A program made the position numbers and the translations under genes. Shown piece after piece: positions 4,778 to 40,644 of a DNA stretch of 64,000 nt (within the stretch, counting starts at the first letter, position 1; each line of letters opens with the position of its first letter). Below the pieces are notes generated by a model that was given only the letters and a program-made list of their open reading frames with translations, had not been told where the DNA came from and ran no database searches. This stretch comes from Devosia pacifica (GTDB taxonomy: Bacteria; Pseudomonadota; Alphaproteobacteria; Rhizobiales; Devosiaceae), in NCBI RefSeq assembly GCF_014652635.1, contig NZ_BMZE01000003.1, positions 186,001 to 250,000 of the forward strand, in the 5' to 3' direction.

Positions 4778-5338
4778 ATGCTAGACGATATCGAATTTCT
4801 CGACGATGCCACCCGCCCGGAAGGCCCGAAGCTTGAGGGCCTGACCGAGGAGCAGCGCCTGCCCGGCATGCATCTCAAGATGATCCACAATCATCTGCGT
4901 GAGAACATGCATGTGCTGCGTACGCTTCTTGATGAGGCGGCGCGCGGCGAAGTGCCCCCCGAAGAGGTCGAAGCGCGCACCAGCGATTTGACCATGATCA
5001 CCAATTACCGCCGTTTTGGCGCGTTGTGCGGCCGGCATTGCCAGATCGTCGAGATGCACCACTCGATCGAAGATGCTGCGATCTTCCCCGAACTCAGCAC
5101 CAAGAGCCAGGCGCTGCTGCGGGTCACGCAGCGGCTGATCGATGAGCACAAGATCGTCCATGAACTTCTGGTGCGACTGGTCAATGCGCTGGGCGATCTG
5201 GCGCGCGATTCCAACCCTGAAACCTTTGCTGCCGCGCGCGAAGTCTATGTGGCGCTCGAAAGGGTGCTGAATTCGCACCTCAACTACGAGGAAGACTCGA
5301 TCGGCGATGCGCTGGGCTATTACGGGGTCGGCGTCTAG
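4778..5338 (+). CDS. hemerythrin HHE-domain protein
   Basis: A helical hemerythrin-like protein of 186 residues, predicted to bind a non-haem diiron centre. Iron-ligand candidates are the HNHLREN helix, HHSIEDAAIFPEL (H-HxxxD/E type), DEHKIVHELL, and the terminal HLNYEEDS helix, spaced as in four-helix hemerythrins. Bacterial members act in oxygen, nitric oxide or iron sensing and Fe-S repair, but none of these can be assigned here. The ATG at 4778 is preferred to an in-frame TTG at 4742. No signal peptide is visible, so it is cytosolic. Its stop overlaps the convergent DUF1801 gene by four bases. Confidence 0.85.
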   Translation: MLDDIEFLDDATRPEGPKLEGLTEEQRLPGMHLKMIHNHLRENMHVLRTLLDEAARGEVPPEEVEARTSDLTMITNYRRFGALCGRHCQIVEMHHSIEDAAIFPELSTKSQALLRVTQRLIDEHKIVHELLVRLVNALGDLARDSNPETFAAAREVYVALERVLNSHLNYEEDSIGDALGYYGVGV

Positions 5339-5724
5339 CGCTTGCGCTTTTTCGTGCGGTTCAACGCAATCGCTTCCTGCACCAGAGCTGTCAGCGCGTC
5401 AGCATCGGGCGCCTCGTCCTCTCGAATATCGATGGCGCGGCGGGTATTACCCTCGAGGCTTGCGTTGAACAGCCCGGTCGGATCGGCAAGCGAGGCACCC
5501 TTGGCGAAGGTCAGCTTGATATAGGTTTTGTATCTCTCGCCGGTGCAGATAATGCCGTCGCACTCCCAGACCGGAACGCCGCGCCATTTCCAGGCCTCGG
5601 TCACCTCCGGATCGACCGACAGGATGATCTGACGAACACGCGCCAGCGCCTCGCCGCGCCAGTCATCGAGCGCTGCAATTCTCGCATCGATCTGTTGCGA
5701 AGCATCCATCTGGTCTTCAGCCAT
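5335..5724 (-). CDS. DUF1801 (YdhG-like) domain protein
   Basis: A small cytosolic protein of 129 residues in the DUF1801/YdhG-like fold, a family of unknown biochemistry. The characteristic features are the helical N-terminus, the EAWKWRGVPVW segment (aromatic/proline strand), and TYIKLTFAKGASL, matching the family's typical strand-loop. The C-terminus is very basic (NRTKKRKR). It lies 11 bases downstream of a second DUF1801 gene on the same strand and probably shares its transcript. An ATG one codon inside a GTG was taken as the start. Confidence 0.8.
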   Translation of the reverse strand: MAEDQMDASQQIDARIAALDDWRGEALARVRQIILSVDPEVTEAWKWRGVPVWECDGIICTGERYKTYIKLTFAKGASLADPTGLFNASLEGNTRRAIDIREDEAPDADALTALVQEAIALNRTKKRKR

Positions 5725-5735
5725 CACGCCCGCCC

Positions 5736-6170
5736 CTAAAGCTTTTCGCCCGGCAACTGGCTCGCCTGCCGCACCCAGTCCGAGAATTGCGCTTCATCCA
5801 GCGCGCCCTCATGAATGTCGTAGTAGCGCACAGCGGGATATTTCGAGGTTCCCTTCGGCTGCGGAACGAGTGCAGCGCCCTGAAAGAACGTCACCTTTAT
5901 GTACTTCGTCATGCAATGATAGCTGACAAACCAGCTGCCACGCTCGACGCCGTAAAACGGCGAGTTCCACTTCACCGCTTTCTCCACACCCGGCACCGCT
6001 TCAACGATCAAATCGTCGAGCCGCCGGCCGATTGCCTGCTTCCAGCCGGGCATCGCAGCAATATAGGCCGCAACCGGCGCCTCGCCGTAGCCCTTCGGGA
6101 TCTGCGGATTTCCGCCCGAAAGCAGTTTCGGTGCACTATCGACTTGGTTGATCGTTTCAGTCTCGCTCAT
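5736..6170 (-). CDS. DUF1801 (YdhG-like) domain protein, second copy
   Basis: This encodes a 144-residue DUF1801 protein. Family signals are the AIGRRLDDLIVEAVPGVEKAVKWNSPFYG block and the TKYIKVTFFQGAAL strand-loop, which aligns with the corresponding region of the neighbouring copy. The two are distant paralogues at best, with strong resemblance only over these motifs. The ATG at 6170 has GGAGGA a few bases upstream, so the long upstream extension of the frame was rejected. It follows the SRAP gene by 25 bases on the same strand, giving an SRAP-DUF1801-DUF1801 run. Function unknown. Confidence 0.8.
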   Translation of the reverse strand: MSETETINQVDSAPKLLSGGNPQIPKGYGEAPVAAYIAAMPGWKQAIGRRLDDLIVEAVPGVEKAVKWNSPFYGVERGSWFVSYHCMTKYIKVTFFQGAALVPQPKGTSKYPAVRYYDIHEGALDEAQFSDWVRQASQLPGEKL

Positions 6171-6195: not shown

Positions 6196-6942
6196 TCAGA
6201 ACAGGTCGAGCTGTCCCCCCGCCGCCTTTTTCGGTTTTGCCTCCGGCTCGGCTTCGGGCGCTGCAGGCGGCTCGATGTCCACCGGCTTGATGAGGTCCGG
6301 ATCATCGAACTTGGCCGTGTTGACGCGGCGCGACACCGGATGAAATTTCAGCGCCCCCTCGGGCAGCGGCAGCGCCAGCTGGCGAGCCTCCGCCGCGCGG
6401 ATTTCGCGCACATCGAGCCAGCGGTCGATCTCATCACCACGGAGGATAGCCGGCATGCGGTCATGAATCTCTGACATCTGCCGGTTCGCTGGCACGGTGA
6501 TTGTCGCGACGGAATCGATCTCTTCGCCCTGCGGTCCCACCCACGTTGCATAGAGCCCCGCAAGCGCAATCGGCTGGTCGTCCGAGCGTGTGATGTAATA
6601 GGGCTGCTTGGTCCTGTCGGGTCCGGTGTGCCATTCATAATAGCCACTGGCAGGGACGATACAGCGGCCATGCTTGAGCACATCACGGAATGCCGGCTTT
6701 TCTTCCATTGTCTCCGCACGGGCGTTGACGAGAAGCGGAAACTCGCGTGGATCCTTCACCCAGCGCGGCACCAGGCCCCAGCGGGCAAAATGCACCTTCC
6801 GGTAGCCGGCATCCTCCCAGATCGCGACGATCGGCTGCGTTGGCGCAATATTGTAGCGCGGCACGATCTCGAGCTGGTTCAGGGTGCGGAACAGCTCCTG
6901 CATCTGCTCGGGCGGCAAGGTCGCTGCATATCGTCCACACAT
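6196..6942 (-). CDS. yedK: SRAP-family (YedK/HMCES) abasic-site crosslinking protein
   Basis: SOS-response-associated peptidase family protein (248 residues). The family shields abasic sites in single-stranded DNA by forming a thiazolidine crosslink through Cys2. The start MCGRY exposes Cys2 after Met removal. The conserved NARAET motif (Asn/Glu), CIVPASGYYEW, and HDRMPAIL (catalytic histidine) are all present. A proline/alanine-rich linker follows the core, and the protein ends in QLDLF, which resembles the bacterial beta-clamp-binding consensus (see findings). The upstream in-frame extension was rejected because it would bury Cys2. It is divergent from the Nudix gene. Confidence 0.95.
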   Translation of the reverse strand: MCGRYAATLPPEQMQELFRTLNQLEIVPRYNIAPTQPIVAIWEDAGYRKVHFARWGLVPRWVKDPREFPLLVNARAETMEEKPAFRDVLKHGRCIVPASGYYEWHTGPDRTKQPYYITRSDDQPIALAGLYATWVGPQGEEIDSVATITVPANRQMSEIHDRMPAILRGDEIDRWLDVREIRAAEARQLALPLPEGALKFHPVSRRVNTAKFDDPDLIKPVDIEPPAAPEAEPEAKPKKAAGGQLDLF

Positions 6943-6995
6943 CTGGCGCCTCCGTCTGATAAGCTCTTTTGATTGCAGCAACCGGAACGCCAAGG

Positions 6996-7409
6996 ATGCC
7001 GGAAACGTCCCCACGCCCCAACAGTGCCAGCCTGGGCCTCGTCAGCCAAGGCACAATTCTGCTGATCCAGCGGGCCCATGCCCCCTACCAGGGGTTATGG
7101 ACGTTCCCTGGCGGCCGTCTGGAGCCCGGCGAGACAGCCGCAGAGTGTGCTGCACGCGAGCTGTTCGAGGAAGTTGCGCTCATCGCGGAGGATCTGATGC
7201 CGGTCGAAACGCAATCTCTTGAAACCGACAAGGGCCACTTCACCTTGGCGGTGTTTGCCAGCACACGGTTCAGCGGAACCTTGAACCCGTCAAATGAGGT
7301 TCTGGACGCCCATTGGGTCGGGCTTTCGGATCTCGATCGGTATCAGACGACAGCCGATCTCGAGCTTGTCATCAAAAGGGCTTTCGCCGCCGTCGGCGAG
7401 ACGTGCTAG
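6996..7409 (+). CDS. Nudix hydrolase
   Basis: This encodes a 137-residue Nudix protein that would hydrolyse a nucleoside diphosphate linked to another group. The Nudix box is clear: GGRLEPGETAAECAARELFEEVAL, with the metal-binding REXXEE core intact and an alanine in place of the usual glycine near its end. The segment between the start and the box contains the expected LIQRAHAPYQGLWTFPGG strand. The start at 6996 (MPETSP) is more natural than an ATG 27 bases earlier. It is divergent from the SRAP gene and followed 9 bases later by the TIGR02301 gene. The substrate cannot be predicted. Confidence 0.9.
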   Translation: MPETSPRPNSASLGLVSQGTILLIQRAHAPYQGLWTFPGGRLEPGETAAECAARELFEEVALIAEDLMPVETQSLETDKGHFTLAVFASTRFSGTLNPSNEVLDAHWVGLSDLDRYQTTADLELVIKRAFAAVGETC

Positions 7410-10439: not shown

Positions 10440-10474
10440 CGTTCCCCGTCAGATCATCTTGGGGGCAAGAAACC

Positions 10475-35846: not shown

Positions 35847-36680
35847 ATGCCGGCCAACCAAACCCTCAATCGCGATCAACTGCTCTCGGTGCTGGAATGG
35901 TACAGCGCCGCAGGGGTCGATACGGCAATCGGGGAAGAGCCGGTCGACCGCTTTGCGCAGCAACGCCAGGCTGTCGAAGCGGCTCTCAAGCCGCGACAGC
36001 GCGCAGAAAGCGCGCCTGCGGCGACGCCACCCGTGCCGGCCAGCGATCCTTCGATGAGTTCAGATCCGGCTGAAGCGCGCGCCCTCGCCAAGGATTGCGC
36101 AACTCTCGAGGCGCTGGAGGCGACGCTCGAGGCCTATGATGGGTGCGGGCTCAAGCGCCGCGCCACGCAACTCGTCTTTGCGGACGGCAACCCCAATGCC
36201 GAGATCATGCTGATCGGCGAAGCACCGGGCGCGGAAGAAGACCGGCAGGGCAAACCGTTCGTCGGGCGCTCCGGCCAGTTGCTCGACCGCATGCTCGCTG
36301 CCATCGGCCTCGATCGAAGCAGCGTTTATATCTGCAACACCGTGCCGTGGCGGCCACCCGGCAACCGCACCCCGACCCCGGAAGAAATGGCGTTGTGCCT
36401 GCCATTCATCAATCGCCAGGTAGAACTGGTAGCACCGCGACTGATCGTGACGCTCGGAGGGCCTGCGATGAAGACCGTGTTCGATACCAGTGAGGGCATC
36501 CTCAAGCGCCGTGGGCACTGGGCCAACATCACTGTCGGCTCTCATCAGGCCGAGGCGATGCCGACCCTCCATCCGGCCTATCTGTTGCGAACACCCGGCG
36601 CCAAGCATCAGGCATGGCGCGACATGCTCTCGCTCAAGGCCAAGATGCGTGAACTCGGCATGAAAGCACCGCACGATTGA
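35847..36680 (+). CDS. family-4-type uracil-DNA glycosylase
   Basis: A 277-residue protein. After a variable proline-rich N-terminus (about 1-90), it shows the family-4 uracil-DNA glycosylase motifs: [24 protein letters not shown] (active-site loop) and [13 protein letters not shown] (second loop). The Fe-S cluster cysteines include the DGCGLK region, [12 protein letters not shown] and MALCLPF. Only one Cys is visible where characterised thermophile enzymes have a CxxC pair, so cluster binding may differ. It would remove uracil from DNA. It is divergent from ETF-QO and followed by the MFS gene. Confidence 0.9.
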
Positions 36681-39402: not shown

Positions 39403-39495
39403 GAACGCTGTTCTTGTTTTGTTCCGTCCTAAGCACTACATTGTTCTCGTTGTTCGCGGAGACGATTCGCCTCCGGTCGCGCAGGGAGAACGCAG

Positions 39496-40644
39496 ATGCC
39501 AGCCTTTCACGCTCCGTCTTTCGAGACCCTCGAAAAGCTCAGCCGCAGCCGTGACGCGGATCTGGCGCGGCGCGAGCTGGTTGACCCGTCACGCAATCGT
39601 GGCCGTGGCGTACAGTCGAATGGCGCTGGACGATTCGAAACGCATACCCGCGAACGCTTCGATGATGGCTGGTCGATGCCGGAGCCGCTGCCGATCTTCG
39701 AAACGATCGAGCATAATGAGCGCGCCCGCACGATTATCACGCGCAACGAAAGCCCGGATATCGGGTTCGACCGATCGATCAATGCCTATCGCGGCTGTGA
39801 GCACGGGTGCTCTTATTGCTTTGCGCGCCCGACCCACGCCTATCTCGGGCATTCTGCCGGCATCGAGTTTGAGCGCGACATCTACGTCAAGACCAATGCT
39901 GTCGAAGCCTTGCGCGCCGAGCTCGGCGCAAAGGGCTATAAATGCCGCCCGATCGCCATGGGCACGAATACCGACCCCTACCAGCCGGTTGAACGCAAGC
40001 ACCGGCTGACCAGGCAGATCCTCGAAGTCCTTCGGGAAACCAAGCATCCGGTCACGATCACCACGAAATCGGCGCTGGTCGTGCGCGACCTCGATATTCT
40101 GTCCGAGATGGCTCGGGACGGACTGGCCAAGGTTGCGATCTCCATTACTTCTATGGACAACAAGCTGAGCCGCAAGATGGAGCCTCGCGCGTCGAGCCCG
40201 GCGCGGCGGCTCGAGGCAATCCGCCTGTTGAGCGAGGCCGGCGTGCCCACGATGGTAATGGCCGCGCCGATGATCCCGGCGATCAACGACATGGAACTCG
40301 AACGCATTCTCGATGCGGCGGCGGCGCAAGGCGCAAGCGCTGCGGGGATGATCCTCGTCAGGTTGCCCAACGAGGTACGCGATCTTTTTCGGGAATGGCT
40401 GCTTCGGCACTTCCCGGACCGGGTGCGGCATGTGCTTTCGCTGATCAGAGACACCAGAAGCGGACGCGACAACGATCCGCGCTTCGGCTCACGGATGCGC
40501 GGTGAGGGGCCGTATGCGGCCTTGCTGCAGCAACGTTTCGAGCTTGCCCGGGAGCGCTACTGCCTCAACGAGCGGCTGTCGGCACCGCGTACCGACCTGT
40601 TCGAGGCACCGCGGCTGGAGAGCGCGCAGATGAGCCTGTTCTAA
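39496..40644 (+). CDS. PA0069-type radical SAM protein
   Basis: This is a 382-residue radical SAM protein of the PA0069 family, which resembles spore photoproduct lyase-like (SplB) enzymes. The 4Fe-4S motif is CEHGCSYC (Cys101, Cys105, Cys108). NAYRGCEHGC, GTNTDPYQP and SITSMDNKLSRKMEPRA are family hallmarks. The RBS GGGAGAA is about six bases from the ATG. The protein ends in QMSLF, which resembles a beta-clamp-binding motif (see findings). A DNA-repair role is possible by analogy but unproven. Confidence 0.92.
   Translation: MPAFHAPSFETLEKLSRSRDADLARRELVDPSRNRGRGVQSNGAGRFETHTRERFDDGWSMPEPLPIFETIEHNERARTIITRNESPDIGFDRSINAYRGCEHGCSYCFARPTHAYLGHSAGIEFERDIYVKTNAVEALRAELGAKGYKCRPIAMGTNTDPYQPVERKHRLTRQILEVLRETKHPVTITTKSALVVRDLDILSEMARDGLAKVAISITSMDNKLSRKMEPRASSPARRLEAIRLLSEAGVPTMVMAAPMIPAINDMELERILDAAAAQGASAAGMILVRLPNEVRDLFREWLLRHFPDRVRHVLSLIRDTRSGRDNDPRFGSRMRGEGPYAALLQQRFELARERYCLNERLSAPRTDLFEAPRLESAQMSLF

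Follow-up and report, generated by a model that had tools for sequence, protein, structure and literature searches.

A conserved beta-clamp-binding-like motif at the C-terminus of the SRAP protein of Devosia pacifica and its relatives

The window analysed here is a stretch of 64,000 nucleotides from Devosia pacifica (contig NZ_BMZE01000003.1, positions 186,001 to 250,000 of the forward strand), and positions are counted from its first letter. It contains a gene of the SRAP family whose product ends in a short peptide resembling those that bind the bacterial sliding clamp, and a radical SAM gene whose product has a similar end. The features that concern us are listed below.

6196..6942, minus strand: SRAP protein gene (YedK/HMCES family), 248 aa plus stop, identified from its translation, PF02586 and the nearest solved structures
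6937..6942, minus strand: Met1-Cys2, start of the SRAP catalytic core, from the alignment, with the role of Cys2 taken from PMC10250235
6214..6279, minus strand: Pro/Ala/Lys-rich linker, residues 222-243, from the translation and AlphaFold
6199..6213, minus strand: putative C-terminal clamp-binding motif QLDLF, residues 244-248, from the sequence, its conservation and the consensus of PMC11139829
5736..6170, minus strand: DUF1801 gene (PF08818, 57 bits), with a chosen start 25 nt after the SRAP stop
5335..5727, minus strand: second DUF1801 gene (PF08818, 77 bits)
39410-39424: exact GTTCN7GTTC LexA-type box upstream of the radical SAM gene, among 3 exact sites in the whole window
39496-40644, plus strand: PA0069-family radical SAM protein (NF033668, 528 bits)
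40627-40641, plus strand: terminal clamp motif QMSLF of the radical SAM protein, followed by the stop, from the sequence

The translation of positions 6196-6942 on the minus strand gives a protein of 248 aa, MCGRYAATLPPEQ...IKPVDIEPPAAPEAEPEAKPKKAAGGQLDLF, followed by a stop. The SRAP profile (PF02586) matches its residues 1-209 with 240.2 bits (cut-off 27.1) over profile positions 1-213 of 214, and this gene is the only one that it matches in the 4.0 Mb genome. In a profile search of genome contigs the closest named relatives belong to Devosia, and both E. coli YedK and human HMCES are among the nearest solved structures. M1, C2, G3, R4, N73 and H160 are invariant in 35 aligned SRAPs and E103 is kept in at least 90% of them; the roles of the Asn, Glu, His and Arg4 in the active site would be those described in work on YedK. 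The SRAP domain is followed by approximately 22 residues rich in Pro, Ala, Glu and Lys and then by QLDLF (6213-6199), directly after which comes the stop codon (6198-6196). The translation thus confirms, with exact coordinates, the original prediction of a SRAP protein that ends in QLDLF after a Pro/Ala-rich linker. An AlphaFold model built on the 35-sequence alignment has a confident core (mean pLDDT of 92.9), block means that fall from 82 to 73 and 57 over residues 221-248, and no secondary structure after residue 218. In the predicted model the tail is disordered, and the terminal motif would therefore be accessible.

The canonical clamp motif is described as Q-phi-x-[LM][FL] in a review on the clamp (PMC11139829), according to which peptides with Gly or Ala at position 2 bind less tightly and the carboxylate at the end of Pol IV makes contact with Arg152 of the clamp. 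QLDLF matches this consensus, as had been proposed for it, and has been the strongest beta-clamp-binding peptide in several studies. The DnaN encoded in the same genome aligns end to end with solved clamps. Its pocket segments were read directly against a published list of residues. This DnaN keeps RYYLNG, TDGHRL, FPDYERV, FNARYLL and MPMRV, in which the pocket residues given in PMC11139829 lie, and a cognate clamp with what appears from its sequence to be an intact peptide pocket is thus present in the genome. The DinB of this genome, named from its IMS domain, ends in EQLSLAL, a hexameric clamp motif, and a terminal clamp motif is absent from its second Y-family polymerase (L309).

The conservation of the tail was studied in 290 SRAP loci obtained from the contig profile search and from draws at the level of the family, order, class and phylum. 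Six of them could not be parsed (L269, L284, L285, L287, L289, L290) and three were duplicates, leaving 281 distinct complete proteins. The motif was called canonical when Q[LMIVF]x[LM][FL] lay at most 2 aa from the end, and relaxed in the form Q..[LMF][FLI]. Among the Devosiaceae-type SRAPs, which are distinct proteins and include one titled Phyllobacteriaceae (L011), 51/53 carry the canonical and 51/53 the relaxed motif, in the form Q[LM][DS]LF and behind a variable linker. Twenty further best copies from Devosiaceae, none identical to the first set, give 17/20 canonical and 19/20 relaxed. In the rest of the order the motif is canonical in 42/90 and relaxed in 74/90 of the best-scoring copies, which represent 90 of the 177 matching genomes of the order (a total that includes 7 from the family) and lean to high scores. 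The figures for the rest of the class are 11/69 and 33/69, again for best-scoring copies that lean to high scores (70 loci, L255 being a second copy, from 69 of 103 class genomes with a match). The phylum draw gives 5/42 canonical and 18/42 relaxed, in a set that includes 21 genomes of the window's own order and class; outside the class the motif is canonical in 2/21 and relaxed in 4/21, from two families. A further 27 loci from the contig search comprise 22 from other named phyla, one without a named phylum and four Hyphomicrobiales, and two of them carry the motif, in both the canonical and the relaxed count: a Melainabacteria locus, the only one among the 22 of other named phyla, and the locus without a phylum name (L053). 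The four distant Hyphomicrobiales sequences (Ancylobacter, Rhizobium), which belong to the window's own order, lack it (0/4). The motif was also considered as a general feature of SRAP proteins, a reading that is rejected since 21/22 sequences of other named phyla and the YedK chain 2icu_A are without it.

All 51 Devosiaceae-type tails share the Q, L4 and F5, with only L or M at position 2 and only D or S at position 3. Their synonymous codons vary (two codons for Q, five for L4 and two for F) while the residues are constant, which indicates that it is the amino acids of the motif that are held. The linker varies in sequence and also in length, from 15 to 31 aa with a median of 22 when counted from a chosen landmark that fitted 50/68 canonical Devosiaceae rows. 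A constant motif beside a varying linker is the pattern expected under selection on a short linear motif. The two Devosiaceae-type exceptions are Devosia loci (L022 and L026) whose SRAP frame is shifted near or before the tail. They encode RLDLF and QLDLF, each followed by a stop, in another reading frame, and so have the appearance of frameshifts, either of the gene or of the assembly. Their interpretation as plain losses of the motif is rejected, as the tail codons persist out of frame.

The commonest tail forms in 316 rows are QLDLF (46), QMDLF (29), QGSLF (24), QLSLF (9) and QMSLF (7). Many relatives end in QGSLF or QPRLI, and these lineages may bind the clamp more weakly, given the loss of affinity described for Gly or Ala at position 2 (PMC11139829). 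The substitutions in the SRAP motif follow the preferences described there for clamp motifs. In a FastTree phylogeny of the 316 SRAPs (L026 was left out), no fewer than 33 changes are required for the relaxed motif, present in 197/316 rows, and 26 for the canonical motif. The motif has thus been gained and/or lost many times; the tree has many weak branches, and these counts do not tell gain from loss.

When the last 30 residues are shuffled, the canonical motif appears at rates of 0.0001-0.0005 (0.0004 for the Devosiaceae-type proteins) and the relaxed one at 0.0009-0.0034, and judging by the orthologous sequences its terminal position is beyond chance. Among the tails of other ORFs it is found in 6/560, four of which are SRAPs missed by the filter; one of the remaining 2/556 is the radical SAM protein of the same window. 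Genome-wide, a DNA pattern for Q-x-x-[LF]-F-stop in which the second codon is NTN (TGG also passes) has 14 sites versus 10 for the reversed control, and the pattern as a whole is thus not clearly enriched. The sites with a true stop end seven frames, of 282 (SRAP), 404 (radical SAM), 195, 62, 54, 43 and 11 codons. The frames of 195 and 62 codons, measured stop to stop, end in QLALF and QLGLF before their stops, and their ends were located by the same scan:

C2:12190-12207 (L298) and C2:1110864-1110881 (L301): QLALF and QLGLF frame ends, respectively

The motif was found in 0/16 parsed secondary SRAP paralogues of Devosiaceae (20 were taken and four were not parsed). It is also missing from the viral SRAPs, where 80 of 121 confirmed loci were kept and the tail occurs in 0/73 distinct proteins, as well as from a phage SRAP match (L293; the other phage match, L292, was not parsed). 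A viral origin or spread of the tailed SRAP is rejected on this basis, in a sample that is narrow because many of its members are Bacillus-phage-like by length and identity.

Several explanations of the tail may be envisaged. The one that we favour, and consider highly probable from the sequences, is that an otherwise ordinary SRAP shield for abasic sites carries at its C-terminus, on a flexible tether of approximately 20-25 residues, a motif for binding the beta clamp, by which it would be attached to the sliding clamp. Alternatively, a short hydrophobic peptide at the extreme C-terminus of a flexible linker could serve as a signal for degradation or for an adaptor, through which a protease such as one of the ClpXP type would remove the shield. 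Degrons do occur at extreme C-termini and SRAP crosslinks need removal. Nevertheless, neither the Gln nor the Phe ever varies in the 51 Devosiaceae-type tails, the common forms (QLDLF, QMDLF, QLSLF, QMSLL, QFDLF, QIDLF) fit the clamp consensus, and some homologues have an extra residue after the motif (QGSLFD, QFDLFS) that a strict C-terminal degron should not tolerate; a degradation signal thus seems very unlikely.

It is more unlikely still that the tail folds back on the SRAP core and acts in cis, controlling access to DNA or the reversal of the crosslink. Such a role could be expected of a conserved tail on a DNA-binding domain, yet the pLDDT falls and secondary structure is absent over the last 30 residues of the model, and the length of the linker varies. 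The least probable explanation in our view is chance or shared ancestry, a neutral tail having been inherited within one clade. The motif does cluster on the tree (33 changes for 197/316 rows in its relaxed form) and close relatives share the tail. Against this, the adjoining linker varies while the five codons of the motif are held at the protein level only, shuffled tails reproduce it at a rate of 0.0004, and tails of this kind turn up again elsewhere in the order and in the class, in two families of the phylum beyond the class (4/21), in the Melainabacteria locus and in L053. The original prediction also held that the tail recruits the protein to the replication clamp. At the level of sequence this receives support from the close homologues, where the motif is conserved, being near-invariant in Devosiaceae at the exact C-terminus behind a variable linker.

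A mechanism for the favoured clamp-tethered shield can be proposed from the chemistry of the family. In HMCES, Met1 is removed and Cys2 forms a thiazolidine with the ring-opened abasic site (PMC10250235), and the SRAP crosslink protects the abasic site from translesion synthesis or AP endonucleases (PMC8041192). The SRAP core of the Devosia protein, with Cys2 exposed after the removal of Met1, would crosslink an abasic site in single-stranded DNA as established for HMCES and YedK. The QLDLF tail, with its free carboxylate, would insert into the peptide pocket of DnaN. This tethering could keep the shield at replication forks, primer-template junctions and gaps, where the clamp is loaded, and an abasic site exposed in the template might then be crosslinked in time to forestall its cleavage, or its copying by a translesion polymerase that uses the same pocket. 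Since DinB would use that same DnaN pocket, the SRAP tail may compete with it, and a tethered SRAP would favour shielding over translesion copying. Given that the clamp-like tag is strongly conserved in close relatives, it is probably the clamp that brings the shield to DNA. With the motif, the shield and translesion polymerases would contend for a single pocket, and mutants of the tail only would separate functions while leaving the chemistry intact.

The regulation of the gene was considered as well. No LexA-type box (GTTCN7GTTC with at most one mismatch) lies nearer to the SRAP gene in the window than position 10441, and across loci with at least 300 nt of upstream sequence the exact box is found within 300 nt upstream in 1/143. 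SOS (LexA) control of this SRAP is rejected on these grounds, and in this lineage SRAP apparently stands outside the LexA regulon. A constitutive SRAP delivered by the clamp would fit the absence of the box. The DUF1801 gene at 5736..6170 is a possible operon partner. On the other side, a NUDIX hydrolase gene (6969-7409, plus strand) is divergent from the SRAP gene, and its listed start overlaps the longest possible upstream SRAP frame. Further along the window, the ORF at 35847-36680 (plus strand) resembles by eye a family 4/5 uracil-DNA glycosylase, an enzyme that could generate abasic sites.

The PA0069-family radical SAM protein of the window has its own record of conservation. A search for its orthologues matched 70 of 81 order genomes. 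Among the best 30 loci (L310-L339, this one included), 26/30 have the canonical motif at most 2 aa from the C-terminus, and in the remaining four QLSLF, QLDFF, QLSLF or QLDLF lies 4-10 aa from it. An exact GTTCN7GTTC box is present in the 900 nt before the motif in 29/30 of these best loci. Its sequence and its box suggest a radical SAM enzyme that is under SOS control and tethered to the clamp. No literature on PA0069 together with radical SAM was found among open-licence PMC papers.

Clamp-type tails are also found on SRAPs of haloarchaeal plasmids. Their loci are the following.

L291, L340-L347 and L471-L475: haloarchaeal plasmid SRAP loci with PIP-like Q[ST]x[LF]xEF ends

A search of plasmids gave 59 records matching at 1e-60, from which 16 loci were taken, two of them without an intact SRAP. 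Most of the proteins examined end in QSGLGEF plus 2-3 residues, and more distant ones in QSGLDEFSSR, QSGLDEFF..., QTDFEEFA or QSDLGEFA. The pattern Q..[LF]..F lies near the end in 14/14 intact haloarchaeal SRAPs, 13/14 having at most 9 residues after the motif and the fourteenth (L472, QSGLDEF plus 10 residues) being counted by eye. The PIP-like pattern appears in shuffled tails at 0.0032 and in 1/316 bacterial SRAPs. It resembles the haloarchaeal PIP box, given as QxxLxxFx in a review on Haloferax (PMC7776575). Over the domain these proteins are approximately 64-79% identical to the query of the search, and in 5/9 of the stretches examined a Cdc6/Cdc18-family gene adjoins the SRAP gene. Since the haloarchaeal sequences are related to each other, their PIP-like tail is suggestive and not a proof. 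It occupies the same place as the terminal motif of the Devosia SRAP, but it is a PIP-like Q[ST]x[LF]xEF suited to PCNA, whereas the Devosia motif is of the DnaN type.

HMCES is reported (Mohni et al. 2019) to have a C-terminal extension with a PCNA-binding motif. The PIP box of HMCES would bind PCNA, a different clamp and a different motif from DnaN and QLDLF. Taken with the haloarchaeal ends, this reported PIP box suggests a repeated and independent acquisition of clamp tethers by SRAP, and the convergence with the eukaryotic SRAP that the original prediction had put forward gains support from these sequences. We lean slightly towards a recurrent design, in which clamp tethering would have arisen independently with the motif of the local clamp: the DnaN motif in alphaproteobacteria (sporadic elsewhere), the PIP-like end in haloarchaea and the reported PIP box in HMCES. 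If the haloarchaeal tail is real, SRAP recruitment to the clamp would have evolved more than once. If the recurrent design is true, clamp delivery would be part of SRAP function in many organisms and E. coli YedK would have lost the tether or never had it.

SRAP proteins have been linked by gene neighbourhood to translesion polymerase operons (PMC3765255), in a paper whose main text has the word clamp 0 times, and the main text of the clamp review (PMC11139829) has 0 occurrences of yedk, srap or hmces. No prior report of a clamp motif in YedK/SRAP, or of a link to DnaN, was found among the matches listed from open-licence PMC papers. Both SRAP and the clamp motif are known; it is their combination that appears to be new.

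Compared with known systems, the Devosia protein shares its SRAP domain with human HMCES and with E. coli YedK, and the active-site positions Cys2, Asn, Glu and His of the latter are conserved in the aligned SRAPs. Unlike the Devosia SRAP, the YedK chain 2icu_A ends with the domain (its last residues being ...LIQPV) and has neither a linker nor a terminal motif. The tailless E. coli protein leaves unanswered how a bacterial SRAP reaches abasic sites at forks, for which the conserved motif would be a direct answer in alphaproteobacteria. The tail of the Devosia protein is like those of Pol II, Pol IV and Pol III alpha, which bear pentameric or hexameric C-terminal clamp motifs (PMC11139829). 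The clients of the clamp motif are polymerases in that case, whereas here the client would be a covalent shield of abasic sites.
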